Origin: Rhodothermales bacterium
Lineage (GTDB): Bacteria; Bacteroidota; Rhodothermia; Rhodothermales; JANQRZ01
Direction of reading: 5' to 3'
NCBI GenBank assembly: GCA_039944855.1
Contig: JBDUXZ010000037.1
Coordinates: forward strand, 62,001 to 126,000
Length of the DNA: 64,000 bases
Position 1 is the stretch's first letter; every line of letters begins with the position of its first letter. The notes below the pieces were generated by a model. The model had not been told where the DNA came from. It did no database searches and saw only the letters and a program-made list of their open reading frames with translations. This document shows, piece after piece, positions 31,250 to 64,000 of this stretch. The position numbers and the translations under genes were made by a program.

Positions 31250-31412
31250 GAGACGTACCGCCTGTGACCGGCCCGAAGAGCACAGGCGATGCGCACGAGT
31301 GCAGTCGTGTCGTTATGACGATGGCGTCCGTATGTTGACAGCCCCGCGCCGGGACTGCTCGTAGTTAGAGCGGCCTTGGCGTGGCCAATCACAGACGCTT
31401 ACCGCCCCTCCA

Positions 31413-31491: not shown

Positions 31492-31518
31492 TGCTGTTGA
31501 AATGAACGGTCACAAACC

Positions 31519-32293: not shown

Positions 32294-32319
32294 CGCTTTG
32301 CAATCGATCAGCTAGAGCG

Positions 32320-32700: not shown

Positions 32701-32742
32701 ATCGGGACAGGCTCGTCGATCACCCTACCGCTGCACTCGCCG

Positions 32743-33147
32743 CTACCTCGGCTCCGCGTTGGTCTCCAGCCACTCCGCGAGCAGGACCTCGTCTACGGTC
32801 CCACCAGCCAGGCCTTCCATCACCGTAACCGTCTCCACTTCCTCCGGCTGGAGGTGGTACCCGTTCCGAAACAGGAACGCTCGGACGGCTAGCAGGGCGG
32901 CGCGCTTATTCCCGTCCACGAAGGCGTGGTTCTTGGCGATCCCGAACCCATACGCAGCGGCCAGATCGAAAAGCGTAGCCCCCTCCTCATACGCACGGAG
33001 ATGTCGGGGCCGAGCGAGGGCGCTCTGGAGCAGCCCCTCGTCGCGTACGCCCTGTGCCCCTCCGAACAGCCGGATCGATTCCGCGTGGAGCATCTTCAGC
33101 TGAATCGCCGTGAGCCAGATGGGGTCGCTCCCGGCCGGCTCGCTCAC
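32743..33147 (-). CDS. Doc/Fic-type toxin (death-on-curing)
   Basis: 134-residue toxin of a type II toxin-antitoxin pair. The Fic core is HAFVDGNKR, matching the Doc form HxFx(D/N)xNKR. Doc proteins use this site to phosphorylate elongation factor Tu and stop translation. The N-terminus (IWLTAIQLKMLHAESIRLFGG, then VRDEGLLQSALARP) is also Doc-typical. Translation starts at a GTG that overlaps the antitoxin stop in a GTGA. Activity is expected because all motif residues are present. Confidence 0.9.
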   Translation of the reverse strand: MSEPAGSDPIWLTAIQLKMLHAESIRLFGGAQGVRDEGLLQSALARPRHLRAYEEGATLFDLAAAYGFGIAKNHAFVDGNKRAALLAVRAFLFRNGYHLQPEEVETVTVMEGLAGGTVDEVLLAEWLETNAEPR

Positions 33148-33371
33148 TTGGCCAGTTCGCGGAACGCGTTCCGGTGGGAGCGCATGAACGCACGCGCGTC
33201 CTCCATCGCTGCCGCGAAGTCGGGGTCGTAGGGCGTCGCGCTGATCCCGTCCGGCGTGGCCGTCACGAAGAGCTCGTCGCCCTCTTGGAGTGCCATCGTG
33301 TCCGCGACGGGCTTCGGTATGATGAACCCAAGCGAGCCCCCGAACCGGCGGACCTTCGTCGTCTCAGGCAT
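33144..33371 (-). CDS. AbrB/MazE-type antitoxin paired with Doc
   Basis: 75-residue antitoxin. The N-terminal swapped-hairpin DNA-binding domain reads TKVRRFGGSLGFIIPKPVADTM then LQEGDELFV. The C-terminal tail (ATPYDPDFAAAMEDARAFMRSHR) would wrap the toxin, like Phd-type tails. The ATG at 33371 is chosen because it gives the canonical domain; the longer upstream frame is leader. A perfect 16-bp palindrome 50 bp upstream (33421-33436) is the likely operator for autoregulation. The gene overlaps the toxin gene by 4 nt. Confidence 0.88.
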   Translation of the reverse strand: MPETTKVRRFGGSLGFIIPKPVADTMALQEGDELFVTATPDGISATPYDPDFAAAMEDARAFMRSHRNAFRELAK

Positions 33372-33420
33372 GGCCTTCCCTCTGTGGTTGATCGTGGGCT
33401 GTGGTTTCGGTCTCTGCTCA

Positions 33421-33436
33421 TTGAACTTAAGTTCAA
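33421..33436. promoter_or_regulatory. Perfect 16-bp palindrome, toxin-antitoxin operator
   Basis: TTGAACTT-AAGTTCAA, fully symmetric and AT-rich in a GC-rich setting, 50-65 bp before the antitoxin start. AbrB-like antitoxins autoregulate through such sites. The rest of the 210-bp gap (33372-33581) holds no gene. Confidence 0.55.
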
Positions 33437-33581
33437 CAGGCCATGCGTACAACGGCCCCGGAGCATTTCTTGTTGCTTTTCTCTTGTCGAGCCGGGTGCC
33501 TACAGAACCCGCGCGGCGCATGCGACAAACACGCTCCAGCGACGTGGAAGACGCCGTGAGCAGCTTCGCGGGATCGCAGGA

Positions 33582-35174
33582 CTACGAGCCGTCCACCAGC
33601 CTGAGCGCATCCGCCAGCGGGTGGTCCCGGCCGTAGAGATCCGGGGCGAAGTGGACCGTTCCGGTTTCGTCCACCCACGCTGTCCAATAGCGGACGTGGA
33701 TCGGGACGGGATCGGCGAGGGCGATCCGCGTCTCTTCCCCCACCGCGATGACCTCGTTCATCCGCTCGGCCGTCCACGCCGTATCAGCCCGGAGGAGCGC
33801 CGCGGCGAGGTCGATGGGCCGCTCGGCCCGGATGCAGCCGTGGCTCAGCGCGCAGTCCGTCCGCGCGAACAGCTCGGGGTTCGACGTGCCGTGGAGGCGC
33901 ACGCCGAAGCGGTTCTCGAAGAGGAATTTCACCGGGCCGAGCGGGTTGTCCGGGCCGGGGTCCTGCCGGATCGCGTACGGGAAGCGCCGCGCCGAGACGG
34001 CCGACCAGTCGACGGCGTAGGGGTCGACGCGGCGGCCGTTGCGGAGGAGCGTCATATGGTGGCGGGCGAGGTACGACGCGCTCCGGCGGAGGTGGGGCAG
34101 GATCTCGGCCGTGGCGATGCTGTACGGCACATGCCAGTACGGGCTGAGCACGACGTGCGTGATCTCGCTCGCGAAGGCCGGCGTCGGCGTCCGCACGGTC
34201 CCGACGATGACGCGCATCACGAGCGTAGTCCCACCGCCGCGCACGTACTCCAGCCGGAAGCTCGGCACGTCGATGAGGACGTACTCCCGCCCGAGGCTCC
34301 GTGGTAGCCAGCGCCACCGCTCCATGTTCAGCTCGATCTGCCGGACGCGGTCCGCCGCCGGGACGTCGAGCGCGGCCTGCGTCTTCGGCCCGACGACGCC
34401 GTCCGCGTCGAGGCCGTGCCGGTGCTGAAACGTCCGCACGGCCGCGTCCACCGCCGCGTCGAAGCGTGGGGCTTCGGCAGTATCGGCCGCAGCCCGCAAG
34501 TCATCGGTGAAGCGGAGGCGGCGGCGCAGCGTGGCGATGCGTGCGTCGCGGTCACCGAGCCGGAGCGTCGGCCCCGGCGCTGTAGTTGGCCAGCCGCCGG
34601 CCTCGGCGAAGGCGCGGTAGCGGGCGAGGGTGCGACGCAGCCGGGTGTAGCCAGCGTGCGGCGGCGGCAGCGCGGCGAGGCCCTCCTCCACCCGACCGGC
34701 CCGGAGTGCGTCCGCGAGCAGGCGGGCTGGATCGACGGTGCGCGGCGGCTCGTCCCAGTCGTCGTACAGTCGGTCGGGGCGAACGCGGCCGGTGCGCTGA
34801 TCGCGGGCGTAGCGGAGGAAGGCGTCGGAGAGGAGCACGTCGAGGCGGGCCTGCTCGCTCGCCGTCAGCGCACCGCCGCGCGCAATCGATCGGCGGAGGT
34901 CATTCGCGTGGTAGTCGGCGGGACGGAGCCCTTCGGCGGCGCTCGCCGCGAGCACGTCGGCGAGGGCGTGTGCGGTGGCCGTGGGGTGTCCGGCGACGAG
35001 CCACGCCGGGGCGTAGTCGCGGGCGTCGTAGAACGCGGCGAGGTCGGGCGCCGGATCGCTCTGACGTGCGAGGGCCGCGCGCAGGTCGCTTGCCGTGAGC
35101 GGCTGCGCCGCCGCCGTGCCGAGTCCGGCGAGGCCGAGGAGCCCCGCCACGAGGACGCGGGCGAGCCGAGTCAT
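33582..35174 (-). CDS. L,D-transpeptidase, YcbB/LdtD-like
   Basis: 530-residue exported cell-wall enzyme that forms 3-3 peptidoglycan cross-links or attaches proteins. A signal peptide (MTRLARVLVAGLLGLAGLGTAAAQ) is followed by an N-terminal scaffold, a peptidoglycan-binding helix bundle (AVRTFQHRHGLDADGVVGPKTQ) and the YkuD catalytic domain with HGTSNPELF and SHGCIRAE, which holds the nucleophilic Cys. Domain order and length match YcbB. The ATG at 35174 overlaps the usp stop in an ATGA, so stress protein and transpeptidase are co-translated. Confidence 0.9.
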   Translation of the reverse strand: MTRLARVLVAGLLGLAGLGTAAAQPLTASDLRAALARQSDPAPDLAAFYDARDYAPAWLVAGHPTATAHALADVLAASAAEGLRPADYHANDLRRSIARGGALTASEQARLDVLLSDAFLRYARDQRTGRVRPDRLYDDWDEPPRTVDPARLLADALRAGRVEEGLAALPPPHAGYTRLRRTLARYRAFAEAGGWPTTAPGPTLRLGDRDARIATLRRRLRFTDDLRAAADTAEAPRFDAAVDAAVRTFQHRHGLDADGVVGPKTQAALDVPAADRVRQIELNMERWRWLPRSLGREYVLIDVPSFRLEYVRGGGTTLVMRVIVGTVRTPTPAFASEITHVVLSPYWHVPYSIATAEILPHLRRSASYLARHHMTLLRNGRRVDPYAVDWSAVSARRFPYAIRQDPGPDNPLGPVKFLFENRFGVRLHGTSNPELFARTDCALSHGCIRAERPIDLAAALLRADTAWTAERMNEVIAVGEETRIALADPVPIHVRYWTAWVDETGTVHFAPDLYGRDHPLADALRLVDGS

Positions 35175-36217: not shown

Positions 36218-38929
36218 TCACCGCTCGTGGCGCCGCGCGATGGCTTTGACGACCTCCGGCACGACGATCACCGGCACCGACGCGAGCGCGATCCACCCCC
36301 ACGCGGCGAGGTCGAGCCCGACCGTCCCGAGCGCCGTCTGGAGCACGGGGACGTAGACGGCTGCGACCTGGAGCCCGAGCGAGCCCGCCACCGCGAGGAG
36401 CAGCCACGGGTTCGAGAAAAAGCCGAGCGACGTGACCGGCAGGCGGAGCGAGCGGAAGTTGAACACGTTCACCTTCTGCATCACCACGAGCGCCGTAAAC
36501 GCCACGGTCTGCGCCCGCACGAGCGCGTCGGGGCCGCCCGCTTGCAAGGCACCGTGGAAGAGGAAGAGCGCGGCGGCGGCGAGGTACGCGCCCATCAGCA
36601 GGATCAGCCCCATCCACCGCCGCCCGAGGATCGGGGCCGAGGGGTCGCGCGGCGGGCGGCGCATCGCGTCGGCCTCGACGGGCTCGGCGCCGAGCGCGAG
36701 CGCCGTCGCCCCGTCGGTGACGAGGTTCATCCACAGGATCTGCACCGGGAGGAGGATCAGTGGACCGCCCGCCACGATGTTCAGCCCGACGGCGAGCACC
36801 TCGCCCGCGTTCGAGGTGAGGAGGTAGCGGACGAACTTCTCTACGTTCGCGAACTGCCGCCGCCCCTCCTCCACCCCCGCGATGATCGAGGCGAAATGGT
36901 CGTCGGTGAGGACGATGTCGGAGGCGTCGCGCGCCACGTCGGTCCCGCGCAGCCCCATCGCCACGCCGACGTCGGCCTTCTTGAGCGCGGGCGCGTCGTT
37001 CACCCCGTCGCCCGTCATCGCGACGACTTCGCCCTGCGCTTGCAGCAGCCCGACGATGCGGATCTTGTGCTCGGGCGCCGCCCGCGCCACGACGACGGGC
37101 GCGCGGAGCGCAGCGGCGAGGGCGGCGTCATCCATCCCGGCGAGGTCGGTGCCGGTGAGCGGCGCCCCCCCGCCGAGCCCGACCTGCCGCCCGATCGAGT
37201 GCGCCGTCTCCGGCGCATCGCCCGTGATCATGACGACGCGGATCCCCGCGCGCTCGGCCTCGCGGACGGCCAACGCCGCCTCCGGCCGAGGCGGATCCTC
37301 GATCCCGACGATCCCGAGGAGCACGAGGTCGCGCTCGACGGCGTCCGCGTCGAAGACGGCGTCGTCGGACAGCGCGCGGCGGGCGAGGGCGAGCGTCCGT
37401 TGCCCGGCTTCGGCGAAGCGCCGGTACGCCGCCTCGCCGTCGGCGCGGAGCGCGGCCGTCATCGGCTCTACGTGGTCGCCGACGCGGACGGCGTCGCAGC
37501 GCGGGAGGATCGCTTCCGGCGCGCCCTTGACGTGGGCCACCGCGCCGTCGCGCGTCTGCTCCACGACCGTCATCCGCTTCCGCTCCGACGTGAACGCGAA
37601 CTCGGCCGCGCACGGGCACGGCGCCGTCGAGAGCGACGCCTTCATCGCCGCGACGACGAGCGCGGCCTCGGTCGGGTCGCCGGCGGCGTACCACGCGCCG
37701 TCCTCCGTGTATACATCGGCGTGGTTGCAGCGGAGGCCGGTTTCGAGGAGCGCGCGGAGGTCGGGCGCGCGGTCGGGGTCGAGCCGGGCGCCGTCGCGCT
37801 CGAAGTGGCCGTCGGGCGCGTAGCCGGCCCCGCTGACGGAGACGGCGCCGGAAGCGAGCCACACGGCGCGCACGGTCATCTCGTTCTGCGTGAGCGTCCC
37901 CGTCTTGTCGGTGCAGATGACGGTTGCCGCGCCGAGCGCTTCGGCGGCGGGGAGCCGGCGGAGGAGGACGTTGCGGCGGACCATCTGCCGCACGCCGAGC
38001 GCGAGCGTGACGGTGACGACGGCCGGGAGCCCCTCGGGCACGGCCGCGACGGCGAGGGAGACGCCCGTCATGAACATCGTCACGAGCGGGTGCCCGAGGA
38101 GCCACCCGATGAGTGCGACGGCGGCGGCCACGGCGAGCGCGACCCCGCCGAGCTGGCGGCCGAGCGTGCCGAGCTTCCGTTGAAGCGGCGTCTGCTCGTC
38201 CTCGACCTCGCCCGTCAGCCGGGCGATCCGTCCGAGTTCTGTCCCCATCCCCGTCGCCGTGGCGAGGCCGCGCGCGGTCCCGCTCGTGACCACGGTGCCG
38301 GCCCACACCATCGGCGCGCGCTCCGCGAGCGGCGCATCCGCCGCGACCGTCGCGACGCCCTTCGCCACCGGCACCGACTCCCCCGTCAGCGCCGACTCGT
38401 CGACGCGGAGGTCGGTGGCCTGCACGAGCCGGAGGTCGGCCGGGACGCGGTCCCCGGCGTCGAGCGTGACGAGGTCGCCGGGGACGAGCGTCCGGGCCTC
38501 GACCTCGCGCCCCCGGCCGTCGCGGACGATGCGGGCGTGCGGCGCCGTGAGCCCGCGGAGCGCTTCGAGCGCGCGCGCGGCCCGCCACTCCTGCACGAAC
38601 CCGAGCACGCCGTTGAGCGCGACGATGGCGAGGATCGTCAGCGCGTCGACGACGGCGCCGACGGCGAGCGAGACGGCGGCGGCGACGAAGAGGACGAGGA
38701 TGAGCGGGGTGACGAACTGCCGCCCGAGCAGGCGCCACCACGGATCGGCGGGCTGCACGGCGAGCGTGTTCGGCCCCGCCGAGGCCAGCCGCCGCGCGGC
38801 GTTGGCGTCTGAGAGCCCGCGCTCCGCATCCGCTTCGAGCACGCGGGCGACGGCGTCGACGGATTCGGCCCACGGGGAAATTAGCCGCTCAGCCGTGGAG
38901 TCGGGTGGAGAGACGGCGCGCTCACGCAT
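36218..38929 (-). CDS. P2A-type cation-transporting ATPase (Ca2+-ATPase-like)
   Basis: 903-residue P-type ATPase of the inner membrane. Actuator motif LTGES (181-185), phosphorylation site DKTGT with Asp341, nucleotide-domain KGAPE, and hinge TGDGVNDAPALKKADVGVAMG are all intact. Helix 4 has VPEGLPA and helix 6 has NLVTDGATALALG, the pattern of SERCA-like calcium and related P2A pumps. It has a cation-ATPase N-terminal domain and a C-terminal six-helix domain. Its start overlaps the end of the sensor-kinase gene by 8 nt. Ca2+ or Mn2+ export is the likely role; CtpF of the mycobacterial DosR regulon is the closest functional analogue. Confidence 0.9.
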   Translation of the reverse strand: MRERAVSPPDSTAERLISPWAESVDAVARVLEADAERGLSDANAARRLASAGPNTLAVQPADPWWRLLGRQFVTPLILVLFVAAAVSLAVGAVVDALTILAIVALNGVLGFVQEWRAARALEALRGLTAPHARIVRDGRGREVEARTLVPGDLVTLDAGDRVPADLRLVQATDLRVDESALTGESVPVAKGVATVAADAPLAERAPMVWAGTVVTSGTARGLATATGMGTELGRIARLTGEVEDEQTPLQRKLGTLGRQLGGVALAVAAAVALIGWLLGHPLVTMFMTGVSLAVAAVPEGLPAVVTVTLALGVRQMVRRNVLLRRLPAAEALGAATVICTDKTGTLTQNEMTVRAVWLASGAVSVSGAGYAPDGHFERDGARLDPDRAPDLRALLETGLRCNHADVYTEDGAWYAAGDPTEAALVVAAMKASLSTAPCPCAAEFAFTSERKRMTVVEQTRDGAVAHVKGAPEAILPRCDAVRVGDHVEPMTAALRADGEAAYRRFAEAGQRTLALARRALSDDAVFDADAVERDLVLLGIVGIEDPPRPEAALAVREAERAGIRVVMITGDAPETAHSIGRQVGLGGGAPLTGTDLAGMDDAALAAALRAPVVVARAAPEHKIRIVGLLQAQGEVVAMTGDGVNDAPALKKADVGVAMGLRGTDVARDASDIVLTDDHFASIIAGVEEGRRQFANVEKFVRYLLTSNAGEVLAVGLNIVAGGPLILLPVQILWMNLVTDGATALALGAEPVEADAMRRPPRDPSAPILGRRWMGLILLMGAYLAAAALFLFHGALQAGGPDALVRAQTVAFTALVVMQKVNVFNFRSLRLPVTSLGFFSNPWLLLAVAGSLGLQVAAVYVPVLQTALGTVGLDLAAWGWIALASVPVIVVPEVVKAIARRHER

Positions 38930-54412: not shown

Positions 54413-54564
54413 GCTACGCGACTCGATAACCTGTCAACTGGAAGCGAAGGGAGACGCAATGTAGCACAATTCCACCCCCGTAGGCTGCAGGCTTCGGGGT
54501 CGAACCGTCCACCACGCCGGCCGCCGCAGGCGCGCTGACAGCGTGGCGCCGTCGCCGTAAACGA

Positions 54565-54605
54565 GCGAAGCCCCGAGCCGGCGGGGTGCCGATTCGGGGC
54601 TTCGC
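54565..54605 (-). terminator. Strong hairpin downstream of the tRNA remnant
   Basis: GCGAAGCCCCGA and TCGGGGCTTCGC arms, 12 bp and perfect, with a 17-nt loop. The minus-strand exit continues into TCGTTTACGG. It lies 6 bp past the 3' end of the tRNA fragment, where a tRNA terminator is expected, so it is probably the original terminator of the intact tRNA-Arg gene. Confidence 0.6.
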
Positions 54606-54610
54606 ATAGC

Positions 54611-54656
54611 GTGCCCGGGAGGATTCGAACCCCCGGCCTTCTGATCCGTAGTCAGA
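54611..54656 (-). tRNA. 3' half of tRNA-Arg(ACG), partial; attL-type scar
   Basis: On the minus strand an anticodon arm TCTGA-CTACGGA-TCAGA (anticodon ACG), a 5-nt variable loop, a T arm GGGGG-TTCGAAT-CCTCC and an acceptor strand CGGGCAC are intact. The D arm and 5' acceptor strand are missing: no GTGCCCG or GCTC partner precedes it, and sequence upstream of the anticodon arm diverges. This is the usual footprint of a tyrosine-recombinase integration into a tRNA 3' half, with the element on the higher-coordinate side. Arms CCGGCC...GATCCG and CGGATCAGGCCGG (54633-54676) also form an inverted repeat across the junction. Confidence 0.65.
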
Positions 54657-54931
54657 CGCTAAGCGGATCAGGCCGGTGCTCTAATGTCCCTTATGCCCCC
54701 GTATTCAGCATTTTCGAGCGAGTCTCAGAATGCTAGCTTGTAGTGTTTCCGCACATCTTCCGCAGATTGTGCGCCGTCGTGTTCTGACGAGACGCTTGAG
54801 GATCTAAATGTACGCATCGGCAGCGAGCTTGTCCCTACGTGGCGCTACTCCCCTCCTGCCTCTCAAGAGTTGCCTGACCGTCTACGCGTGCAGCCCTACC
54901 TCTTCAAATTTCGCCCCCTTTGGTGAAGACC
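54657..54931. other. Intergenic DNA after the tRNA scar, no gene seen
   Basis: About 275 bp without a convincing frame. A fragment at 54856-54885 (CTGCCTCTC, then CGTCTACGCGTGC) resembles the conserved middle of the attC-like sites, but no terminal GTT box follows at the right distance, so at most a decayed copy is present. Confidence 0.4.
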
Positions 54932-54960
54932 AAAAACGAGATCCAGCCCACCGGATCTCG
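54932..54960 (-). terminator. Rho-independent terminator of the DUF932-like gene
   Basis: On the minus strand CGAGATCC and GGATCTCG arms (8 bp, perfect) enclose an 8-nt loop and are followed at once by TTTTT. It lies 15 bp past the stop of the DUF932-like gene. Confidence 0.8.
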
Positions 54961-54975
54961 CTTCCCTTTGCCGTG

Positions 54976-55923
54976 CTAGTTCGCCGGGCGTGATAGCGCG
55001 TGCTCGATGAGCGACGACACGGCGTACTCGTTGTGGCGGAAGTCGCTTACCGTCGGCCGATCCGCGTGCCACGTCACCGCCGTAGCCGCATTGAGCAAGC
55101 CCCAGCCGCTGAGTTCTTCTTCCAAGAGGTAGCGGTCCACGACCTTCCCCCACAACGTCACCGGCATGTTCGGGAGCACGTCGCGCCGGATCTCGCGTAG
55201 ACGAGACGACGACATCCGCATGGACGCCAACGACCTCGCCGCCATTGCGAAACGGGCGATGCCCCCTTCAGCATGCCGCAATGCCCCCAGCGTCCGCTCC
55301 ACCTCACTCTCCCATTCCGATGCCGTGGGATCGTGGCGGAACCGGACCTCTTTAAACAGCGACTTCGCCACCATCCCGTTCGAGCACACCAGCCTTGTTA
55401 GGTACACCCCGGCGCTGAAGGCCCGGCTCCCGTCGTAGCTGTTCCAGAAGCCCAAGGACAGCCCTAATACGTCGCCCGGCTTCACTTCCACCGTCTGCGC
55501 TTCCTTTGCCGTCAAACCAAGGAAGTAGCGCTTGCCGTCGAAGAACGTCCGGTCCTCTTGGAAAGGCAAGCCGGAGCGGTGCGCGATCTCCCCGGCCAGA
55601 TCCCGGACCCTTGCATTGGGGATGAGGAGGTAATCGCCGCTTACGACGCCGCACTCGCGCCATCCGGTTTCTCCGTCGGGGTCGGCGATGCGGACGGTGT
55701 AGCCCGCGCTATCCATGCCGTCGGCCGTCTGGAGCCGCCGCTTCTCGATGGGGGCGTACGGGCCGGATTCCGGCTCCGGATAAAACTGGCGTTCGGGTGT
55801 GGTGATGAGGGTTCGTGTGTTGTCATGAGTTGACAGATTGCCATTGTTCGCGGCGTTGCCATGTGTTTTGCCGTTGGTCGTGCCGTTGCTAGATAGGAGG
55901 TACATGGAGTCGTTCATGGTCAT
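54976..55923 (-). CDS. DUF932-like phage/plasmid protein
   Basis: About 315 residues. The N-terminal 35 residues are Asn/Gly/Thr-rich low complexity (NGTTNGKTHGNAANNGN). The core has GDYLLIPNARVRDLA, then GLTAKEAQTVEVKPGDVLG, and FSAGVYLTRLVCSNGMV, resembling DUF932 proteins carried by phages, plasmids and integrative elements, where the function is unknown. The frame extends further upstream, but that part looks non-coding. ATG 55923 is used; ATG 55950 is an alternative. GC is lower than in the core genes. It fits an integrated element starting at the tRNA scar. Confidence 0.7.
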   Translation of the reverse strand: MTMNDSMYLLSSNGTTNGKTHGNAANNGNLSTHDNTRTLITTPERQFYPEPESGPYAPIEKRRLQTADGMDSAGYTVRIADPDGETGWRECGVVSGDYLLIPNARVRDLAGEIAHRSGLPFQEDRTFFDGKRYFLGLTAKEAQTVEVKPGDVLGLSLGFWNSYDGSRAFSAGVYLTRLVCSNGMVAKSLFKEVRFRHDPTASEWESEVERTLGALRHAEGGIARFAMAARSLASMRMSSSRLREIRRDVLPNMPVTLWGKVVDRYLLEEELSGWGLLNAATAVTWHADRPTVSDFRHNEYAVSSLIEHALSRPAN

Positions 55924-56081
55924 GTTGGTTGAATGGTTGGAGGGTGGCATCTTTGGCGTATCCCAACGGTGCGGGATCGTGCGAGTCCAGCGGTGGTGCA
56001 AACACAGAAAGAGCCGGGCAGCGTGAATAGCCACCCGGCCCTGATCGTGTCGATGCCTTGATCGCGTCGATTTATTGCTGG

Positions 56082-56795
56082 CTACAGCCCGGCTTGCAAC
56101 CGGACGTAGACGTTGACGCCGAGCGTGTGCCCCTTCGCTTCGTCGCCAGTCACGCCGATGAGGTGGACGGAGACGTGCGCTGGAAGGAGCGGAGCCAGCC
56201 ACGGCGCGTGCTTGTCCTGTATCCGACCGATGGCGAGGCTTCCCCAGTAGACCACCACCCCGTTGGGCGTGGCGTGGAGGTGGAGTTCGAGGCCTGCTTG
56301 GACCAGATGATTACGCGCGGCATCACGCAGGGCACGGACGTTGGACTGCACCGCCCTTACCCCCACCAGCTTCGTCGGGATGGAGAGCACGACCGGACCG
56401 ATAGAACCGGATGATGCAGCCGAATCATTCTCACCGATGGAATCCCTCTTTCCGTTGGAATCCATGTGGCCATAGGAATCTCTCTTTCCGCTAGAATCAC
56501 CCCAGCCGTTGGAATCCCTCTTGCCGTTGGAATCCATGTGGCCGTTCGGGGGATAGCCCGTCCAATCCTTCTGGCGGGCGAGGTAGGTCAGCGTGAACGA
56601 GAGGGCGGCGAGGGCTTTCTCGACGACGTAGGCCGGATCGAGCTTGGAGTTGGCAAGGACGTGCTCCGTCCAGCGGCGGGCCTGCCGGATGAGGGCGTGG
56701 ATGAACGGGAGCGTCGGGGGCCCTTCGAAGGACCCGAACGACGTGGCGCCGTTCTTGGGGATGGCGTGGGGCGGCATGAGCAGTGGGGGTTGCAT
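56082..56795 (-). CDS. HIRAN-like protein with seven hexapeptide repeats
   Basis: 237 residues (or 231 from a second ATG at 56777). Residues 1-80 are helical (FIHALIRQARRWTEHVLAN, VVEKALAALSFTLTYLARQ). Residues 85-126 are seven exact hexapeptides of form G-x-x-D-S-x (GHMDSN, GKRDSN, GWGDSS and so on), encoded by an 18-bp tandem repeat. The C-terminal 95 residues (KLVGVRAVQSNVRALRDAA, VVVYWGSLAIGRIQDKHAP) resemble a HIRAN domain, a DNA-end-binding fold, although weakly. It lies upstream of the DUF932-like gene on the same strand with a 158-bp gap. Function unknown. Confidence 0.6.
   Translation of the reverse strand: MQPPLLMPPHAIPKNGATSFGSFEGPPTLPFIHALIRQARRWTEHVLANSKLDPAYVVEKALAALSFTLTYLARQKDWTGYPPNGHMDSNGKRDSNGWGDSSGKRDSYGHMDSNGKRDSIGENDSAASSGSIGPVVLSIPTKLVGVRAVQSNVRALRDAARNHLVQAGLELHLHATPNGVVVYWGSLAIGRIQDKHAPWLAPLLPAHVSVHLIGVTGDEAKGHTLGVNVYVRLQAGL
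56418..56543 (-). repeat. 18-bp tandem repeat, seven copies, coding
   Basis: Seven in-frame 18-bp units encoding G-x-x-D-S-x hexapeptides, some nearly identical at the DNA level and some diverged. Copy number should be unstable by slippage. An unrelated 18-bp array lies 1.6 kb away at 58049-58123. Confidence 0.85.
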
Positions 56796-56952
56796 GAGTT
56801 GGAGTCCGTGGATCGGACCCCTTACACTGCTATGGTGCCGGGATACGAGCGAATCTTGCAGCTGTCGCCGGACACCCCGTTGCCCTCCTCACCCCTCCCC
56901 TACTCCTACGCTTTAGATCTACCACCTAGCGCCACGAATTGTTATACTATTT

Positions 56953-57240
56953 CGTGACAGTCCGAAATTTGCGCGCTCACGAAAATCGTCGCCAGAATGC
57001 GATCAAAACGGCCAATGTAAACTAATTAGGCACTATTGAAGGAATGCACCCAGTTGTCTTCACACAATCCCAACGACCATAAAGAGAAGAATCATAGATA
57101 GACGACGAGAGAACCACCTACAAGACTCCAGACGATCAAGATAGATACAACAATAATAGAAGATACAACTAGAAGTAAGATATAACTAGATAGACTCCCT
57201 AGATAGAAGACTACAAGAGATCCAGAAAGACCACTACAAC
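56953..57240 (+). repeat. A/G-rich leader-like element, copy 1
   Basis: Starts with CGTGACAGTC (56953), carries CTTCACACAA...CCCAACGACCATAAAGAGAAG from 57058, then runs into about 150 bp of T-poor A/G-rich sequence full of AGATAG and AGATACAAC motifs and stop codons. The same two blocks recur at 63740 and 63844, with 105 and 104 bp between them respectively, in the same orientation. No frame is open. It could be a promoter plus unstructured RNA leader or a recombination sequence. Confidence 0.6.
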
Positions 57241-57378
57241 CCCTCTTCTTTCGCCGCCTCACCCAATACCTCCATTTGCGGCCTCATCCGATTTTTTGGC
57301 GCCGACATCCGAATCCTCCCCTCCTTGTGGTCGCAACACGCCCTATCCCTTCCCTCTCACCTATCAACGTTCTGCCGT

Positions 57379-57458
57379 CTCTATCGAATAGAGAGGTCTC
57401 TATCACGTAGAATGGTCTCTCTCTATCACATAGAAAGGTCTCTATCAGCTAGAGAAGG
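57379..57458. repeat. Four CTCTATC...TAGAG dyads
   Basis: CTCTATC begins at 57379, 57398, 57421 and 57440 (spacing 19, 23 and 19). Each is followed by a TAGA or ATAGAG arm, giving four small imperfect hairpins in a row. No gene here. Confidence 0.7.
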
Positions 57459-57508
57459 ACGCCAACACATCCATTGACATGACCTGTTGCCGCTTCCTTC
57501 CCATACAC

Positions 57509-57615
57509 GACGTGCTGCCATTCTAAGACGTGACGTGCTGCCACTTCCTTCCCATACATGACTTGACGCCATTCAAAGAGAGACGTGCTACCATCCACAT
57601 AGACGTGCTGCCATT
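57509..57615. repeat. Dispersed GACGTGCTGCCAT repeats
   Basis: Several copies of GACGTGCTGCCA or GACGTGCTACCA, with an intervening CTTCCTTCCCATACA block that also occurs just upstream. Different from the arrays on either side. Any function is unknown. Confidence 0.55.
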
Positions 57616-57663
57616 TCCGACGTGGCCTGAACCTGAATGTGTCCTCTGCCATTGCTAAGCCTT

Positions 57664-57946
57664 TGATCCAGCATTGGGCTCCAAATCTGGCGCTGTCATT
57701 GATCAGCATTTGGCCCTGATCCAGCATCAGCCTTTGATTCGGCTGCCAGCTTTGATCAGCAATTGGGTCTTGATCAGCACCGGCCTTTGATCCGGCCGTT
57801 GGCTTCGACCAGCACTTGGCCCTGATCCGGTGGCAGACCGCCAATCTTGCGTAGGCTTCGATCAGCATGAGCCTCTGATCCGGCGGCAGGCCCTGCATCC
57901 TACGAAGGCTTCTATCAACTCAATCCATTGATCCGGTCGCAGCCTC
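57664..57946. repeat. Degenerate 17/18-bp tandem array, TGATC core
   Basis: About a dozen degenerate units beginning TGATCMRGC or CGATCAGC and ending GGCCC, GCCTT or GGCTT, mostly spaced 17 or 18 bp. The odd spacing breaks reading frame, so coding repeats are unlikely. Iteron-like length, but no replication initiator gene is visible. Confidence 0.65.
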
Positions 57947-58048
57947 TACCTGCATCGTGCTTCGCCCTTAATCAGCCCCAGAATTCGCCGCCCCTTTGCC
58001 CTCCCCTCTTAACGCGGTCGAACCGGACGAGCGTAGCGGGCCTAACAG

Positions 58049-58123
58049 GAGCATCTGCGGATCGATGAGCATCCGTGGGTCGATGAGCATCTATGGACCG
58101 TTGAGGGGCATCTGTGGGCCGAA
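58049..58123 (+). repeat. 18-bp tandem repeat, four copies
   Basis: Units GAGCATCTGCGGATCGAT, GAGCATCCGTGGGTCGAT, GAGCATCTATGGACCGTT and a diverged fourth. A short frame (57996-58244) would read them as hexapeptides, but no family is recognisable and it may be non-coding. Confidence 0.75.
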
Positions 58124-58270
58124 CAAGAGCAATCGAATACGAAGCATCAGGATGTCGGTGGCGCGAGATCAGCGGCTACCAGATGCGCCTCAACGTACCC
58201 TCTTGATGTCTGGCTCGCCGCTGATCAATACGGTCGCTTCCTAGAGGCATACGACGCGATATGATGCCGT

Positions 58271-58392
58271 GCTGTAGTGCTTGCGTCCGCACTCCGGACA
58301 TCGCGCCAACTTGCTTGACTCCTTCATCGTTACCGTCTACATTGCCACACCCCGCTGCCTGGTACAGCAGGTGAAGGGTAACTCTGTTGTGC
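58271..58392 (+). repeat. attC-like recombination site B
   Basis: CTTGCT at 58310 and CGTCTACATTGCC at 58334 precede a terminal GTTGTGC at 58386-58392. The 76-nt distance from the CTT block to the GTT box equals that in sites A, C and D (76-78). The 3' third (GCAGGTGAAG...) closely matches site A (GCAGGTGAGG...). The left box is not recognisable. The GTT box also starts a hairpin (TGTTGTGC...GCACAACA, 58385-58411). Confidence 0.6.
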
Positions 58393-58474
58393 ACTTAGGT
58401 GCAGCACAACATTACTGTGATGTAAACAGCGCAAGAAGTCAGCCTCAGCCCCTCAACCCCAGAATGGTTCAGCG

Positions 58475-59557
58475 ATGAAACGCCTTCTTCTACTCTCTGT
58501 AGTTTTGGTGTTAGTCCTCTATCCGATTCCCTTGGTCGCTCAATCCCCTCAAAGCGACTCATTGGAGATTAATCCATTTATAGACTTGGTTGAAAGGTCG
58601 AGATCTCTTCCTGATATAGAATCCCATATTCTGATCTCACCCAATATGTTCGAATCACTAAATAGTATTCTAACAGAGACCTTTGAAGAGGCGGGAGACA
58701 CACCCCAGGATCAGGTAGATGCCATGGCAATGGCATCGACCTACCTATACAATGCTAATTCCGTGGATCAAAGATATCTATGGGGCAAAGATGCAATAGA
58801 ACGAATGATTGCAGGTGTAGATAACGTTAATGAAGTTCTGAGAAGTGCACAATTGGAACAGTCTATTGGACTAGGAACCAATTTATGGTCCGATGAGAAC
58901 TTTCGAAACGCAGCGGATCAAGTAGGAGATTGGGGCACTGCAATTGGACTCCTTGCTTCTGCTGCCACTATACTAATACCTCAAGAAGACAGAGGCGGTC
59001 TACCTCAAGTAGGATTGGGTATTACCGCACTCTCCAAATTCGTAGGCACAATCTGGGGAGGACAGACGGGGAACAATTTTGAAGACAAAACCCGCTTCAT
59101 CGAATTTACGCGTTCTGCTTATGAAGACATGAGAGAGCGAAATACTATGATAGCCCTATATATTCAAAGCAACGAAGCTTTCAAAAGTGATCTAGTTAAA
59201 TTCAAACAGGAAATGTATGATAGTGCCAGCAGCACTGAGCTTAAGCGGGAAGCAATTCTAAACACTTCTTTCTTTGTAACTCAGTATGACAACATTCTAA
59301 CACAGATACCGGCTCTGTACGAGGTGTATCAAAAGCTAGTGACAGATTACTGTCCTGATGTATTCATTCACCCGACCCCTGCCGCTGCAAAGTGCGAACC
59401 TGAAGTTTCAGGTGTAAAGTATACCCTAAAGGGCGATCCAAGAGATAAAATCCTGGAAGCCGCATCGATCGTAGAAGACTTACAGCGTGCTAGGGCTAGC
59501 TCAAACAGCCTCCGCCTCCTTACTGCACAAATGCGATCCGCATTCTTAAACGTTTGA
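58475..59557 (+). CDS. Secreted helical protein, unknown
   Basis: 360-residue protein with a Sec signal peptide (MKRLLLLSVVLVLVLYPIPLVAQ, cleavage after VAQ). The mature chain is largely helical, with two Gly/Ala-rich hydrophobic stretches (WGTAIGLLASAATILIP and VGLGITALSKFVGTIWGG, about residues 160-205) that could form a membrane hairpin. Two cysteines near residues 294 and 309 could form a disulfide. AT-rich codons contrast with the core. No family is recognised. The next gene, a metalloprotease-like lipoprotein, begins 21 bp later, so the two are probably co-expressed. A pore-forming or surface role is only speculation. Confidence 0.65.
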   Translation: MKRLLLLSVVLVLVLYPIPLVAQSPQSDSLEINPFIDLVERSRSLPDIESHILISPNMFESLNSILTETFEEAGDTPQDQVDAMAMASTYLYNANSVDQRYLWGKDAIERMIAGVDNVNEVLRSAQLEQSIGLGTNLWSDENFRNAADQVGDWGTAIGLLASAATILIPQEDRGGLPQVGLGITALSKFVGTIWGGQTGNNFEDKTRFIEFTRSAYEDMRERNTMIALYIQSNEAFKSDLVKFKQEMYDSASSTELKREAILNTSFFVTQYDNILTQIPALYEVYQKLVTDYCPDVFIHPTPAAAKCEPEVSGVKYTLKGDPRDKILEAASIVEDLQRARASSNSLRLLTAQMRSAFLNV

Positions 59558-59577
59558 AACGCAATTCAAGCACAGAT

Positions 59578-60255
59578 ATGTCTAAACTTCCATTCATACT
59601 CGGAATATGCCTCGTCGTTTCTGGCTGTGCCGCTTCGGAGCGGGCAGGGACGGAAAGCAAATTCGTAGAACTGACAGGTGATGGTCAATCGGGGTTGTAC
59701 GACTTGTCAGACACCAATATTCCCGCGCAATACCTAGAAATGGTGAGGTCGGCAATCAATCGCGCGGATTCGCTTTCATTGAGTCAGACGTTTCTTGCTG
59801 CCGTAGGGGAGAAGACGGATTGGAGCTATGTGAGCAATGACATAGGGGGGGAAACAGTAGCTAAAATACTAGAGGCCCGGGTGCACTCGATCGACAGTCG
59901 CCCTATTCGCCCAAGTCTCGCATTTTACACACCACCTCGTGTTGGCCGCGACATATGCAATGGGTGGAGTTGGTGGGGACTGAGGCGGACGGCTTCAACC
60001 GGCTGTACGTCGAATGGGACGGTCTACAAAAGTCTTGAGAGTATCTCGGATGACCCCAAAGTCTTAGCTGGTTTCCTCCTTCATGAATGGCTCCATGTAG
60101 CTGGCTTCGGGCACGACGGCAATTTTCAACAATGCAGCGAACGGAAGCGCAACTCTGTTCCTATCTATGTTGACTGCTTGTCTCAGGCTCATCCTGACCC
60201 CGAACAGGTCGCGCTTTGCTCGCTTGCTTGCTCGGGTGATAGCGAACGTGAGTGA
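59578..60255 (+). CDS. Metzincin-like lipoprotein metalloprotease
   Basis: 225-residue protein. A lipoprotein signal ends VVSGC (Cys about 17). Near residue 175 it has HEWLHVAGFGH, an exact HExxHxxGxxH zinc motif as in metzincins, followed by CSERKRNSVPIYVDC. A clear Met-turn was not found, and the chain is short for a complete metzincin domain. Cysteines are numerous, fitting extracytoplasmic folding. The ATG at 59578 gives the lipoprotein signal; a TTG at 59554 overlapping the previous stop is the alternative. Activity on the secreted neighbour or the envelope is possible. Confidence 0.65.
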   Translation: MSKLPFILGICLVVSGCAASERAGTESKFVELTGDGQSGLYDLSDTNIPAQYLEMVRSAINRADSLSLSQTFLAAVGEKTDWSYVSNDIGGETVAKILEARVHSIDSRPIRPSLAFYTPPRVGRDICNGWSWWGLRRTASTGCTSNGTVYKSLESISDDPKVLAGFLLHEWLHVAGFGHDGNFQQCSERKRNSVPIYVDCLSQAHPDPEQVALCSLACSGDSERE

Positions 60256-60379
60256 GGCGGAGAAGAGTAACCCATTTAAAACGTTGACGTAGGGGCTCAC
60301 ATGCAGAGAATCAGTATGCAGGCATCCCAGCTTCCGGCCTCCGCATAAGACCCACGAAGAAACCAAGTGGAAAACCAAG

Positions 60380-60688
60380 ATGGCTAAGTCGAAATCAGGC
60401 TACAAGATCGAAACCGTCAGCGCCAAGGAAGCCCACGAAACCCTCTCCAAGCTGCGTAAGGGCAAGGGTGGAAGGAGCAAGTACCAGCCGATGCTAGAGG
60501 CCGTGCAGAAGGCCAACAAGGGCGATTTGGTTACGATCAAGGGCGTGCCGAAGAGCGAGGTGCAGCCGATGCGCTCCTACATCTACGGCGCCCTCGACAA
60601 GGAGGAGTACACCGTGAAGAGCGCTCGGGAGGACGAAGAGGGCAACACCTACACCGTGGTGGCCGGCCGCACCGTGGATTTCGACTGA
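60380..60688 (+). CDS. Small basic protein, unknown
   Basis: 102 residues, Lys-rich at the N-terminus (MAKSKSGYKIETVSAKEAHE, then LSKLRKGKGGRSKYQP), followed by a mixed alpha/beta part (DLVTIKGVPKSEVQPMRSYIYGA, YTVVAGRTVDFD). A nucleic-acid-binding role would suit the charge, but no family is recognised. Codon use is GC-rich like the core, unlike its two upstream neighbours. No attC-like site separates it from them. Confidence 0.65.
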   Translation: MAKSKSGYKIETVSAKEAHETLSKLRKGKGGRSKYQPMLEAVQKANKGDLVTIKGVPKSEVQPMRSYIYGALDKEEYTVKSAREDEEGNTYTVVAGRTVDFD

Positions 60689-60840
60689 TCCTACCTATGC
60701 CGGTCGTTGTGGTAATGGAATTGCGGGGCTCAGCTGTTTCGCATCATAGGCCTCATGCGGCTACAGCCTCACCGGACCGGTAGACAGGGTACGGCCCCCG
60801 CGACTGGTCTATTTGTAGATACAATGGGCACTTCGAGACT

Positions 60841-61404
60841 ATGAGAAGACCTAAGTGGATCGCCATGTCCGTACCCATCTGGTATCTGGTGCTGCTATTG
60901 GTGCCGTTCACCTTCCTTGGCTTACCCATGTGGCTCACCGGAGGGAGGATCGCACTAACGCTTAGTCTGGTCTATACGCTAGTCAGCTCGTTTGTGGCAA
61001 TCGGTTTCACTTGGACCTATTTGAGCCTAATCATCAAGGAAACCAGTCGGCTCAACAGTTCTGGCTCTCGTCCCAGCAGCTTCGGTGACAGGGTCAAGGC
61101 GCACTTTGCAGACCTTCAATCCTCTGGCGTCGGATTTTTGCTCGTCGTTGTGATAGCCGGGTACCTACTGATATCTATCCCATTCGGGCTGGCCTACTCC
61201 CTTGCGGGAGACCTCACCACCAGTGACTCAGTATGGGACAATGTGCTGTTCAGCACCAACTTGCTTTCCACGGTAGTATTTGGAGATATAAAACCTGTCG
61301 GCTTTGGAAAAACGTTGGCTTCCATCCAAACCATCGTGGGTTTGATTTTTCAGGTCATGGTCGTCGCTCTCGCCATTGCTCTGGTGATTCCGGACAAGGA
61401 ATAG
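60841..61404 (+). CDS. Two-pore-helix ion-channel-like membrane protein, altered filter
   Basis: 187 residues with two N-terminal membrane helices (about 8-33 and 36-62), a polar linker, and a C-terminal pair of helices around a pore-like loop. The loop reads FSTNLLSTVVFGDIKPVGFGK, which aligns with the potassium-channel pattern TxxTxGYGDxxPxxxxGK; the filter is TVVFGD instead of TVGYGD. Selectivity is therefore uncertain: it may be a non-selective or inactive relative of Ion_trans_2 channels. It lies in a cassette-like unit closed by attC-like site C. Confidence 0.65.
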   Translation: MRRPKWIAMSVPIWYLVLLLVPFTFLGLPMWLTGGRIALTLSLVYTLVSSFVAIGFTWTYLSLIIKETSRLNSSGSRPSSFGDRVKAHFADLQSSGVGFLLVVVIAGYLLISIPFGLAYSLAGDLTTSDSVWDNVLFSTNLLSTVVFGDIKPVGFGKTLASIQTIVGLIFQVMVVALAIALVIPDKE

Positions 61405-61412
61405 CCACGTGC

Positions 61413-61536
61413 CCATTACCCACGGCTGCACGCCGACGAAACGCTCTGCCGTCTTGCCTCTCACCACCGTCCTCGTCTACGTTGCCCCGTCCCGCCGTCT
61501 TGCCGCGTGCTGCTGGTGAGCGGCCATCCGTTATGC
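61413..61536 (+). repeat. attC-like recombination site C
   Basis: Right box GTTATGC (61530-61536). CTTGCC at 61453 lies 77 nt before it and CGTCTACGTTGCC at 61474, both shared with site D. The left end CCATTACCCAC complements, with one indel, a sequence 5' of the preceding gene (60709-60718). It starts 8 bp after the channel gene's stop. Confidence 0.65.
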
Positions 61537-61554
61537 CCACTCTAACCTTAGACC

Positions 61555-62388
61555 GTGTCTGACACAAAGCCGGACTACTCCTCATTCGAGCATGGAGGAC
61601 GCCGTTTCTCTGTCCGATGGGGCAACCTACTCGTCTCGCAGGCCCAGGCTCGTGAGATGACAGAAGAAGAGGCCGCTTCCCTACTGAGAGTGTGGGGCGC
61701 CGCCGCGCTGGAGGAATCAGACCGCGACCCTTCCGGTTACATCTACTTGGCGCATATGCCCGCCACAGGACACTACAAGGTTGGCTACAGCAAAAAGCCA
61801 GAGGCCCGTGTCAACCACTTCGACGTGCAGATGCCAGTCGAAGTAAAGATGCTTCACTCGTTCCCAGCCGATGACGCTCGCGCCTGCGAACAGCAGATCC
61901 ACAACTGGGCGGAGCCGTGGCGTGTCAACGGGGAGTGGTTCGCGCTCCCCGGCGGGCAGGCTTTGCTGATCCAATACTACCGGGGATACGAGAACGGCCG
62001 GTTCGTAACCGATCCTAATGAGGTGCCAAACCTCATTCAGGACCTTGGGCAACTACCACCTAGAGAGTTTCAACCGCACCCTGAGTCTTTAGCCATAGCA
62101 GAACAAGGGCGAAAGCAGAGAGAGAAGGACCTCCGTGAGCGCCAGAACTGGCCTGAACTAGAGCGAGACCTGCCAGCTTCGAAGCCAGACCTCAAGCGCC
62201 TGTTCAGCCATGTTAGATCTGCTATCAGCTCAGAGGGCTGCGACCACACGCTCAGGCACACTCTCTCTTGCTCAGCAGCTAATAATTTGCCTGAACAACC
62301 CTTAGTCACGTGGCTTCAGCACGGAGGCGGATACTGCGACTGCGAGGTGATCGCCAACGTCGCTGAAATGTGGGAATGGCGGCTGTGA
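61555..62388 (+). CDS. GIY-YIG (T5orf172/MUG113) nuclease-like protein with DUF2695 tail
   Basis: 277 residues from a GTG start, 18 bp after the GTT box of site C. Residues about 60-125 form a MUG113/T5orf172 GIY-YIG domain: GYIYLAHMPATGHYKVGYSKK, a conserved Arg in PEARVNHF, and a Glu in the EQQIHNW helix. The C-terminal 60 residues (CDHTLRHTLSC, VTWLQHGGGYCDCEVIANV) match the DUF2695 pattern with conserved cysteines. A Lys/Arg/Glu helix joins them. GIY-YIG domains cut DNA; a role in defence or element maintenance is possible. The combination with DUF2695 is uncommon to my knowledge. Confidence 0.75.
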   Translation: MSDTKPDYSSFEHGGRRFSVRWGNLLVSQAQAREMTEEEAASLLRVWGAAALEESDRDPSGYIYLAHMPATGHYKVGYSKKPEARVNHFDVQMPVEVKMLHSFPADDARACEQQIHNWAEPWRVNGEWFALPGGQALLIQYYRGYENGRFVTDPNEVPNLIQDLGQLPPREFQPHPESLAIAEQGRKQREKDLRERQNWPELERDLPASKPDLKRLFSHVRSAISSEGCDHTLRHTLSCSAANNLPEQPLVTWLQHGGGYCDCEVIANVAEMWEWRL

Positions 62389-62406
62389 CAAGGCTGCGCC
62401 ACGTGG

Positions 62407-62530
62407 GCATAGCCAGCCTCCCCACCCGCCTTAGGGCACTACAGCCTTGCCTCTTTCCACCGCCAGCGTCTACGTTGCCTCATCCAACCGCTTCGATACC
62501 CGGTGCGGCTTAAGTGCCACCTTGTTATAC
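62407..62530 (+). repeat. attC-like recombination site D
   Basis: Left box GCATAGC (62407-62413) with inner extension GTGGG, complementary 10/11 to the start of the GIY-YIG cassette. CTTGCC at 62446, CGTCTACGTTGCC at 62467-62479, right box GTTATAC at 62524-62530, 78 nt from the CTT block. Length 124 bp. Confidence 0.7.
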
Positions 62531-62543
62531 CGCCCTCCGACCT

Positions 62544-63230
62544 GTGTACACTGATTCCCCGTTGAGGCCAGGTGTTCTGATCGTTGACGACGATGCCATC
62601 GTCCGTTCAGTCTGGGCGAAGTTGCTAGAGGATAATGGCTTTTCGACGGTCGAAGCGAAAGACGGAATTGAAGCAATCGAAAAGCTGTCTGCAGCACAGG
62701 AAGGCATCCACGTGATTTTGCTAGATCGCATGATGCCCAGGATGACCGGGGACGAATTCCTTAAGCACATTATCAATACTCACCGCTGCCACGTATCGGT
62801 TATTATGATAACAGCTTACGATTCAGAAGAAAGCAAGCTTAAGTTCTATGGCCTGCGGTCTGAATACGTAATTCCGCACCGATATATTCCGAAGCCATCA
62901 AATTGGGAAAGCCTTTTGTCGAACGTTAGAAGCTCTGCCGATTCGGCAATAGATAGACGTAATAACACAAGCAATTCAGAAATGTCTCGAATGCGAGATG
63001 ATATCCAGAGGCTACACGAGAATACCTTAGCCATGCAGAGATTACTAGCAGAGCTTCCTACAAAGACACAAGTTGAGGGTATACGTGCTGAGATGGCGAA
63101 GCATAATAGAAGCTTTCTGTCAGAGATTGGAATGGATTTGATTAGGGCGCTTGTCATAGCCGCTGCAATAGTTGCTATTCTCTCCTTAGGATTGCCAGAT
63201 CTGATTCAGAGACTTATTGGGGCGGTATAG
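62544..63230 (+). CDS. Membrane-anchored response regulator receiver protein
   Basis: 228 residues. The receiver domain (about 10-130) has the acidic triad VDDD, Asp61 as phosphoacceptor (ILLDRMMPRMTG), the switch Thr in IMITAYD and Lys in YIPKP, so it should be phosphorylatable. A coiled-coil-like helix (about 135-180) and a C-terminal hydrophobic helix (ALVIAAAIVAILSLGLPDLI) follow instead of a DNA-binding domain. GTG 62544 is preferred, since a GTG at 62514 would lie inside attC-like site D. The stop codon lies inside the right-hand cassette box. No partner kinase is nearby. Confidence 0.7.
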   Translation: MYTDSPLRPGVLIVDDDAIVRSVWAKLLEDNGFSTVEAKDGIEAIEKLSAAQEGIHVILLDRMMPRMTGDEFLKHIINTHRCHVSVIMITAYDSEESKLKFYGLRSEYVIPHRYIPKPSNWESLLSNVRSSADSAIDRRNNTSNSEMSRMRDDIQRLHENTLAMQRLLAELPTKTQVEGIRAEMAKHNRSFLSEIGMDLIRALVIAAAIVAILSLGLPDLIQRLIGAV

Positions 63231-63306
63231 TCTGTTGAGATCGAGTGGCATTCCGCCGCTCCAGGAGTACCAGCCCATTGCTGCATAGGATCATGTGGGT
63301 ACTTGC

Positions 63307-63636
63307 ATGTTGAACCGTGGCGCCCTCATCGTCCGCCCCGCGCAACCGTACCTCGATTGGGCCGCCAGCTTGGACGACTCCGGCATCCTACCGGACCCCC
63401 ACGACGAGGTGACCATCTACTTGGTCCCGGAATACGAAGACGACCTAGAAGCAGATAAGGTGCTCAAGCGGGTGTACGCCGAAGTCTTCGAGCGCGAGCT
63501 GTTCGGGTGGTGCACCGACGAATCCCTCTGGCCAAAGCGCCGGACCCTCGCCCTCTTCAAGGCGTGGTTCACCGTCGAGATGCACTCCATCGTAGAGGAT
63601 CTAAGCAACGCTCCCCTAGTCGATGACGACATCTAG
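63307..63636 (+). CDS. Conserved hypothetical protein, small, acidic
   Basis: 109 residues starting MLNRGALIVRPAQPYLDWAA. It has an acidic central segment (VTIYLVPEYEDDLEADKVL), then VFERELFGWCTDESLWPKRR and LALFKAWFTVEMHSIVEDL. The pattern is that of a widespread uncharacterised bacterial protein of about 110-150 residues. GC is core-like. It follows the response-regulator cassette, but no attC-like site is recognisable between them. Function unknown. A GTG at 63295 would add four residues. Confidence 0.7.
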   Translation: MLNRGALIVRPAQPYLDWAASLDDSGILPDPHDEVTIYLVPEYEDDLEADKVLKRVYAEVFERELFGWCTDESLWPKRRTLALFKAWFTVEMHSIVEDLSNAPLVDDDI

Positions 63637-63739
63637 ATGGGCAGCAGATGGGTATGGAAGCCTCAGCTAGGTTGTGACGTAGCTGCAACGGGAATCAACT
63701 GATTGACTCAGGATTAACGCAAGCTATTTATCCCATTAT

Positions 63740-64000
63740 CGTGACAGTCGGATTTACGTGCCCCACCGGATTTGGCCAACAAGAGGGGTATAAATCGTCC
63801 TTTTTAGCTTACTAATCCACATTCTCGATCACCGGCCGTTGCTCTTCACACAAACCCAACGACCATAAAGAGAAGATACATAGATAGATGACAAACCACT
63901 AGAGAAGAATATATAGATCGAGTAAGGAGGCTAGACAGACGACACAGTCTAAGAAGACAGACTACGACAAGCATCTATAAGAGACAACTAAGCAGACTAA
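63740..64000 (+). repeat. A/G-rich leader-like element, copy 2, reaches window end
   Basis: Repeats the two blocks of copy 1 in the same orientation: CGTGACAGTC at 63740 and CTTCACACAA plus CCCAACGACCATAAAGAGAAG from 63844, then T-poor A/G-rich sequence to the end. The middle is diverged. Together the copies bracket 56.95-64.0 kb. What lies beyond is not visible. Confidence 0.6.

Follow-up and report, generated by a model that had tools for sequence, protein, structure and literature searches.

Near the right end of the window, the 64,000-nucleotide stretch of DNA analysed here, lies a tRNA-Arg(ACG) gene without its 5′ half, and the locus raises the question of whether this fragment is the edge of an integrated element and, if so, where the element ends and what it carries. 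A preliminary description of the window had taken the fragment for such an edge. The window corresponds to C37:62001-126000 of the host genome (G000), and subtracting 62,000 from a position on contig C37 gives the window-equivalent place.

Both ends of the island

The fragment occupies 54609-54660 on the minus strand and extends from the end of the D-arm (about position 25) to the acceptor 3′ strand, plus 2 bp, keeping the whole anticodon arm, the variable region, the T arm and the acceptor 3′ strand; past the D-arm end the sequence diverges from tRNA, and the 5′ half is missing, as the preliminary description had it. ARAGORN called no tRNA in the window, and the Rfam tRNA score of the fragment (26.7 bits) is below the gathering score of 29, as expected for half a gene. 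A search of the 4.6-Mb genome (41 contigs) with window positions 54560-54720 as the query yielded three places: apart from the query, these are C37:136296-136347, where 52 bp are copied exactly, and a weakly matching tRNA-Arg(CCG) on contig C1. The exact copy is part of an intact tRNA-Arg(ACG) gene detected by ARAGORN on the same contig, at a distance of 19,687 bp from the fragment, and given an exact match over 52 bp (E 1.7e-20), the fragment cannot be attributed to chance. The features at the two ends are the following.

54564-54606, minus strand: apparent displaced host terminator of the original tRNA-Arg, a hairpin after the tRNA 3′ end (by folding)
54609-54660, minus strand: attL core, 52 bp from the 3′ part of tRNA-Arg(ACG), displaced by the insertion and exactly matching attR at C37:136296-136347 (by sequence match)
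54609-64000, no strand: leftmost 9.4 kb of an island of 19,687 bp, its remainder (C37:126001-136295) lying past the window
54664-54676, plus strand: short stretch from the tRNA 3′ half in inverted orientation, next to the inner edge of the core, marginal (79 of 2000 shuffles reach its score)
54747-54764 (C37:116747-116764), plus strand: putative left arm-type site TTCCGCACATCTTCCGCA, a unique 18-bp repeat
C37:135013-136128, minus strand: integrase, 371 aa (Phage_integrase, E 6.2e-30; phrog_1 integrase, 5.5e-55)
C37:136163-136180, strand not given: putative right arm site, a unique 18-bp repeat
C37:136198-136228, plus strand: inverted tRNA 5′ half, 31 nt, 29/31 bases matching tRNA positions 3-33
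C37:136246-136286, strand not given: island terminator at the right end (by folding)
C37:136296-136370, minus strand: intact tRNA-Arg(ACG) (by ARAGORN)

The intact gene, the absence of which had been named beforehand as the outcome speaking against an element, thus lies 10.3 kb past the end of the window, on the side and in the direction that had been predicted. Its last base pairs are identical to the fragment, as anticipated, although the shared segment is 52 bp long rather than about 46 bp. The 52-bp direct repeat is present at both ends, the intact tRNA is found only at the far (right) end, and between this gene and the terminal fragment, which has the same orientation and is on the correct side, there is an integrase gene. 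The composition changes at the same boundaries: the GC content is 0.565 over the 19,687 bp compared to 0.735 and 0.715 in the 10-kb flanks, and values of about 0.73 give way to 0.49-0.63 immediately to the right of the fragment. On its left side, a terminator-type hairpin (-41.3 kcal/mol in a 71-nt stretch) adjoins the tRNA 3′ end, so that the terminator on one side and the GC drop on the other are both where the preliminary description placed them. The island has a terminator of its own at the right end (73 nt, -33.7 kcal/mol), and both tRNA-proximal terminators fold strongly. An Rfam match to F6 at 54564-54606 is sub-threshold (E 0.63) and was taken as chance, the place being that of the terminator hairpin. 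The GC content also dips at window positions 30001-34000 (0.61-0.65 against a background of 0.73), a feature unconnected with the island.

When the two flanks were joined in a script, ARAGORN recovered a restored tRNA-Arg(ACG), and the join of the two island ends gave no tRNA. The observation of a tRNA 3′ half at the element edge is confirmed and its interpretation is supported; the fragment is almost certainly the attL of a 19,687-bp integrative island in tRNA-Arg(ACG). A circular form of the island would have recombined with the chromosomal tRNA-Arg gene inside the common core, with the crossover probably in the anticodon loop because the identity stops just past the 5′ side of the anticodon stem. 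The insertion would have pushed the original tRNA 3′ half together with its terminator to 54564-54660, and the island would supply its own 3′ half and terminator as replacements, so that the tRNA would stay functional. One part of the preliminary description fares less well: the inverted repeat that was reported to cross the junction (54633-54648 with 54664-54676) can be located but is marginal when taken alone, its tRNA-alignment score being reached by 79 of 2000 dinucleotide shuffles.

Integrase and cargo genes

The integrase gene adjoins the intact tRNA, as had been predicted for a tyrosine recombinase; it reads away from this tRNA and starts 167 bp from the core at the tRNA 3′ end. Residues R225, K250, H319, R322, H345 and Y354 are invariant across nine aligned sequences and correspond to the usual catalytic set of tyrosine integrases, that is, the R-K-H-R-H-Y set of the lambda type. 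The 18-mer TTCCGCAYATCTTCCGCA has exactly two copies in the 4.6-Mb genome with up to one mismatch allowed, against zero for a reversed control pattern, and these copies lie inward of the two cores by 86 bp and 115 bp, respectively. Judging by sequence, the repeats are read as arm-type integrase sites located on both sides of the core, as in the lambda-type systems. With a nine-sequence profile (E <= 1e-60), the integrase family was detected in 32 of the 114 genomes of the order, and a scan of viral contigs with the integrase confirmed no relative.

These features weigh on the two other explanations of the fragment. The view that ordinary homologous recombination brought the island in, or that the island is a defunct remnant, with the tRNA repeat being incidental, draws on contig-level data in which no empty site was seen; it is nevertheless highly improbable in the face of an exact 52-bp tRNA repeat at both edges, an integrase whose catalytic residues are intact and a matching pair of arm sites, one at each end. 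An isolated tRNA pseudogene without any island is a barely credible account of the fragment: decay can produce half tRNAs, but this one repeats the final 52 bp of the intact gene exactly and is accompanied by the GC step, the integrase and the arm sites.

The other island genes listed here are as follows.

54976-56202, minus strand: DUF932/TIGR03299-like protein, ORF start uncertain (E 6.3e-18)
58475-59557, plus strand: 360-aa protein with no match in family searches
60841-61404, plus strand: ion-channel-like membrane protein (PF07885, 8.4e-5)
61555-62388, plus strand: T5orf172/MUG113 plus DUF2695 protein (by domain matches)
62514-63230, plus strand: response-regulator receiver protein (PF00072)
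C37:126124-127641, strand not given: 505-aa protein (ORF)
C37:127859-129589, strand not given: SIR2-APAZ protein (PADLOC, 2e-176)
C37:129586-131037, strand not given: short Argonaute, class I short pAgo (PADLOC, 3.8e-186)
C37:131146-131514, strand not given: 122-aa protein similar to the terminal part of a type II restriction enzyme model (PADLOC, 6e-10)
C37:131575-133569, minus strand: polymerase-like protein, 664 aa (weak motif and profile likeness)
C37:133713-134483, minus strand: 256-aa protein (ORF)

A phrog_27609 protein is also among the island genes. The ORF at window positions 57449-57898 contains internal repeats (QRLMLI/QMLI-type units), has no Pfam match and may not be a gene. Among the 17 island proteins scanned, Pfam detected none of the capsid, packaging or conjugation genes that would mark a prophage or an integrative conjugative element.

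The genes for SIR2-APAZ and short pAgo are adjacent and overlap by 4 bases, the arrangement of a SPARSA pair of this family. The solved proteins closest to them are chains in entry 8in8 and its related entries (E 1.9e-76 for SIR2-APAZ and 2.7e-124 for short pAgo), which, going by the matching protein names, we take to be the SPARSA complex of the published study. In the SIR2 domain, the catalytic Asn and His, in the motifs TTNFD and KLHGD, align with those of the solved protein; the roles of these residues are described in the accessible part of that study (PMC10781750). The cargo of the island thus likely includes a SPARSA-type anti-phage Argonaute system that, by homology, would deplete NAD+ once the guide RNA pairs with invading DNA. 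The pair resembles SPARSA, as far as the accessible part of the study describes it (PMC10781750), in the 4-base gene overlap, the near full-length matches to 8in8 and 8jkz and the conserved Asn and His; it differs in riding on a tRNA-integrated island, which would make the putative defence pair mobile.

For the 664-aa protein, no match was found in Pfam, PADLOC, PHROGs, NCBIfam or, with a single-sequence query, PDB. Relatives are present in 8 of the 60 related genomes, and motifs in the family A order (D..SAQ-like, K...YG-like, QHDG-like) are recognizable in most of the nine aligned members, of which one is cut short and some are variant. A profile of this family matches Taq polymerase with E 0.052, the segment that begins ahead of motif A and runs to motif B being in register; in motif A, the family has Gln at the position where DNA polymerase I has Glu. 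These likenesses suggest a divergent family A polymerase-like protein and do not warrant a stronger assignment. The gene is located near a related integrase in G053, G033, G409 (C1), G013 and G436, and at about 7 kb from one in G024; scans of genome contigs and viral contigs with the protein confirmed no relative. At the level of loci, the family (L004 15575-17569, with relatives in L052, L086, L087, L088 and L104) occurs alongside these integrases in the tRNA islands of this order.

Related islands in the order

A search for tRNA fragments that took in the 60 relatives identified at least three other genomes with a tRNA-Arg 3′ fragment and nearly the same cut. The fragment is found 12.2 kb from an intact tRNA-Arg(ACG) in G045, which has its own integrase, and 1.8 kb from an intact tRNA-Arg(ACG) in G025; in G008, it is near a contig end, and the same tRNA terminates a different, integrase-bearing contig. 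Visual inspection places a terminator-like hairpin beside the core at every end seen in these comparisons. The 1.8-kb interval of G025 (L049 6574-8433) is flanked by nearly identical terminators and is perhaps what remains of a collapsed island. The 12.2-kb tRNA-Arg island of G045 (L050 4538-10496) bears SIR2-like and PDC-S36-type proteins (PADLOC names).

A genus-mate with an empty site was not found among the 60 relatives, which include no other genome of the genus. In G001 and G002, two members of the same family, tRNA-Arg(ACG) is uninterrupted and has the same right-hand neighbours as in G000, and its left neighbour is a phosphoglucomutase gene, the G000 homologue of which is located on contig C11. 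The cyclase-FHA gene on the left-hand side in G000 has only weak matches in G001 and G002. The 4.4-kb stretch around the phosphoglucomutase gene on C11 contains no convincing tRNA-Arg fragment (best E 0.028, 22 nt), and the left-flank difference between G000 and G001/G002 is therefore taken as an ordinary, independent rearrangement.

The closest counterpart of the island is in G053, another genome of the same order: a sister island that spans about 19 kb and is inserted in tRNA-Cys, with the tRNA and its 3′ fragment at C49:18621-18665 and 37665-37738. It carries integrase, polymerase-like and DUF932 genes, the latter encoding a relative 49% identical to the G000 protein, along with type I restriction-modification M and S genes. 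The 18-kb tRNA-Met island of G409 (C6; L084 and L100) contains the closest integrase found (48%) and encodes a type I restriction-modification M, S, R set and a PD-Lambda-4-like protein.

An inverted tRNA 5′ half in the attachment site

A tRNA-integrated island is itself of a well-known, textbook type; what sets this one apart is the inverted tRNA half in the attachment site, which no title or abstract opening among the papers listed describes. In the accessible part of the Islander study (PMC4383910), 3760 of 3919 tRNA-integrated islands have 3′ fragments and 159 have 5′ fragments, and anticodon-centred sites are common (2083). The present island resembles those of this set, as described there, in having a tRNA gene, a same-orientation 3′ fragment and an integrase between the two, all within 2-200 kb, and differs in the addition of an inverted 5′ fragment of the same tRNA (PMC4383910). 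By that account, oppositely oriented fragments are rejected and serve as the measure of false positives (PMC4383910); fragments that are noise to Islander recur here at a fixed place in related attachment sites.

In G000, the inverted 5′ half lies between the right arm site and the island terminator, derives from the island's own target tRNA and has a score reached by 0 of 2000 dinucleotide shuffles. The tRNA layout was examined at 34 integrase loci. At 10 of these, the tRNA is on the integrase strand, ahead of the integrase start; at 3, it is on the opposite strand (one of them being a rebuilt-looking remnant); and at the other 21, no tRNA is shown, 6 of these loci being cut by contig ends within 251 bp. 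Four of the 10 comparable sites contain an inverted 5′ end: G000 (31 nt, 0/2000 shuffles), G053 (35 nt, 0/2000), G058 (12 nt, 3/2000) and G052 (14 nt, 25/2000, which would fail correction for 10 tests). In the six remaining sites of the same layout (G045, G032, G008, G039, G046 and G020), an inverted 5′ end is not significant. All four inverted ends start at tRNA position 1-5, and the two long ones, in G000 and G053, stop at positions 33 and 39, within the anticodon loop or at its border. Among the three loci with a 3′ remnant beside the integrase, one (G033) also has the first 15 nt of the tRNA there (1/2000 shuffles), and in the two others the 5′ end is absent. That the inverted pieces are plain integrase core sites was considered and rejected: the 31-nt and 35-nt matches, which reach back to positions 3-5, exceed what a core site should need.

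In an integrase tree of 22 rows, G000 joins, with moderate support (84/89), three islands inserted in tRNA-Met whose tRNA has the opposite direction with respect to the integrase; for one of them, G378, a 5′ half at the end of a contig is all that represents the tRNA. This clade belongs to a nine-row group (100/99) that encompasses all four layouts, with either tRNA half in either orientation; the layouts are our own assignments, and G455 and G443 (intact tRNA facing away) and G378 (5′ half) were seen without their far ends. The G455 integrase has two stops. The inverted 5′ ends of G053, G052 and G058 are all in tRNA-Cys and, because their integrases form one clade (93/90), count as one case, such that the inverted 5′ end is present in at least two integrase lineages.

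We tentatively propose, as a possibility that falls somewhat short of an even chance, that the island switched its attachment orientation while keeping the same tRNA gene as its target, that the G000 attP preserves a record of the switch and that the inverted 5′ half is a relic of it. The ancestor would have had the tRNA 5′ half in common with its target, next to the integrase, and would later have integrated in reverse via the near-symmetrical anticodon arm; the reversed island would then have taken up a 3′-half core with its terminator. The inverted 5′ half (to position 33) and the faint inverted 3′ bit on the left could accordingly be the two sides of the old crossover, given that reverse integration would put a 3′ half at the left end, against the other side of the old core, which is the place of the weak repeat noted in the preliminary description. 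If the inverted halves are relics of flips, they would trace switches of integrases between tRNA halves and orientations and, because four layouts occur in one integrase family and the relic 5′ end in two lineages, such flips could be a general route for islands to remodel the use of their targets.

It seems unlikely, if worth weighing, that the inverted 5′ half is instead a working part of the site, which would pair, as DNA or within a read-through RNA, with the tRNA 5′ half and so control excision or integrase expression. Its location between the arm site and the terminator in G000, G053, G058 and G052, its fit to the current target tRNA in every case and the transcription of the tRNA towards the integrase are all compatible with such a role; a functional part would, however, be expected to be kept, and this one escapes detection in 6 of the 10 comparable sites and measures no more than 12-14 nt in two others.

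As for the proposed change of orientation, use of a tRNA 5′ half has a parallel in pTN3-like integrases, for which, in the accessible part of the review (PMC8371274), the tRNA 5′ half is the common site and the rebuilt tRNA is expressed from the integrase promoter. Such expression is also supposed for the layout of the G455/G443 type; the pTN3-like integrases differ in being archaeal, and the part of the review at hand does not mention an inverted 5′ half beside a 3′-half core (PMC8371274). The system of phage tRNA-dependent lysogeny, as far as its accessible description goes (PMC10865867), shares with the island a tyrosine integrase, a core in a tRNA gene and flanking arm-type sites, and differs in that the phage brings its own tRNA gene, its core being too short to rebuild that of the host, whereas the island core rebuilds the host tRNA.
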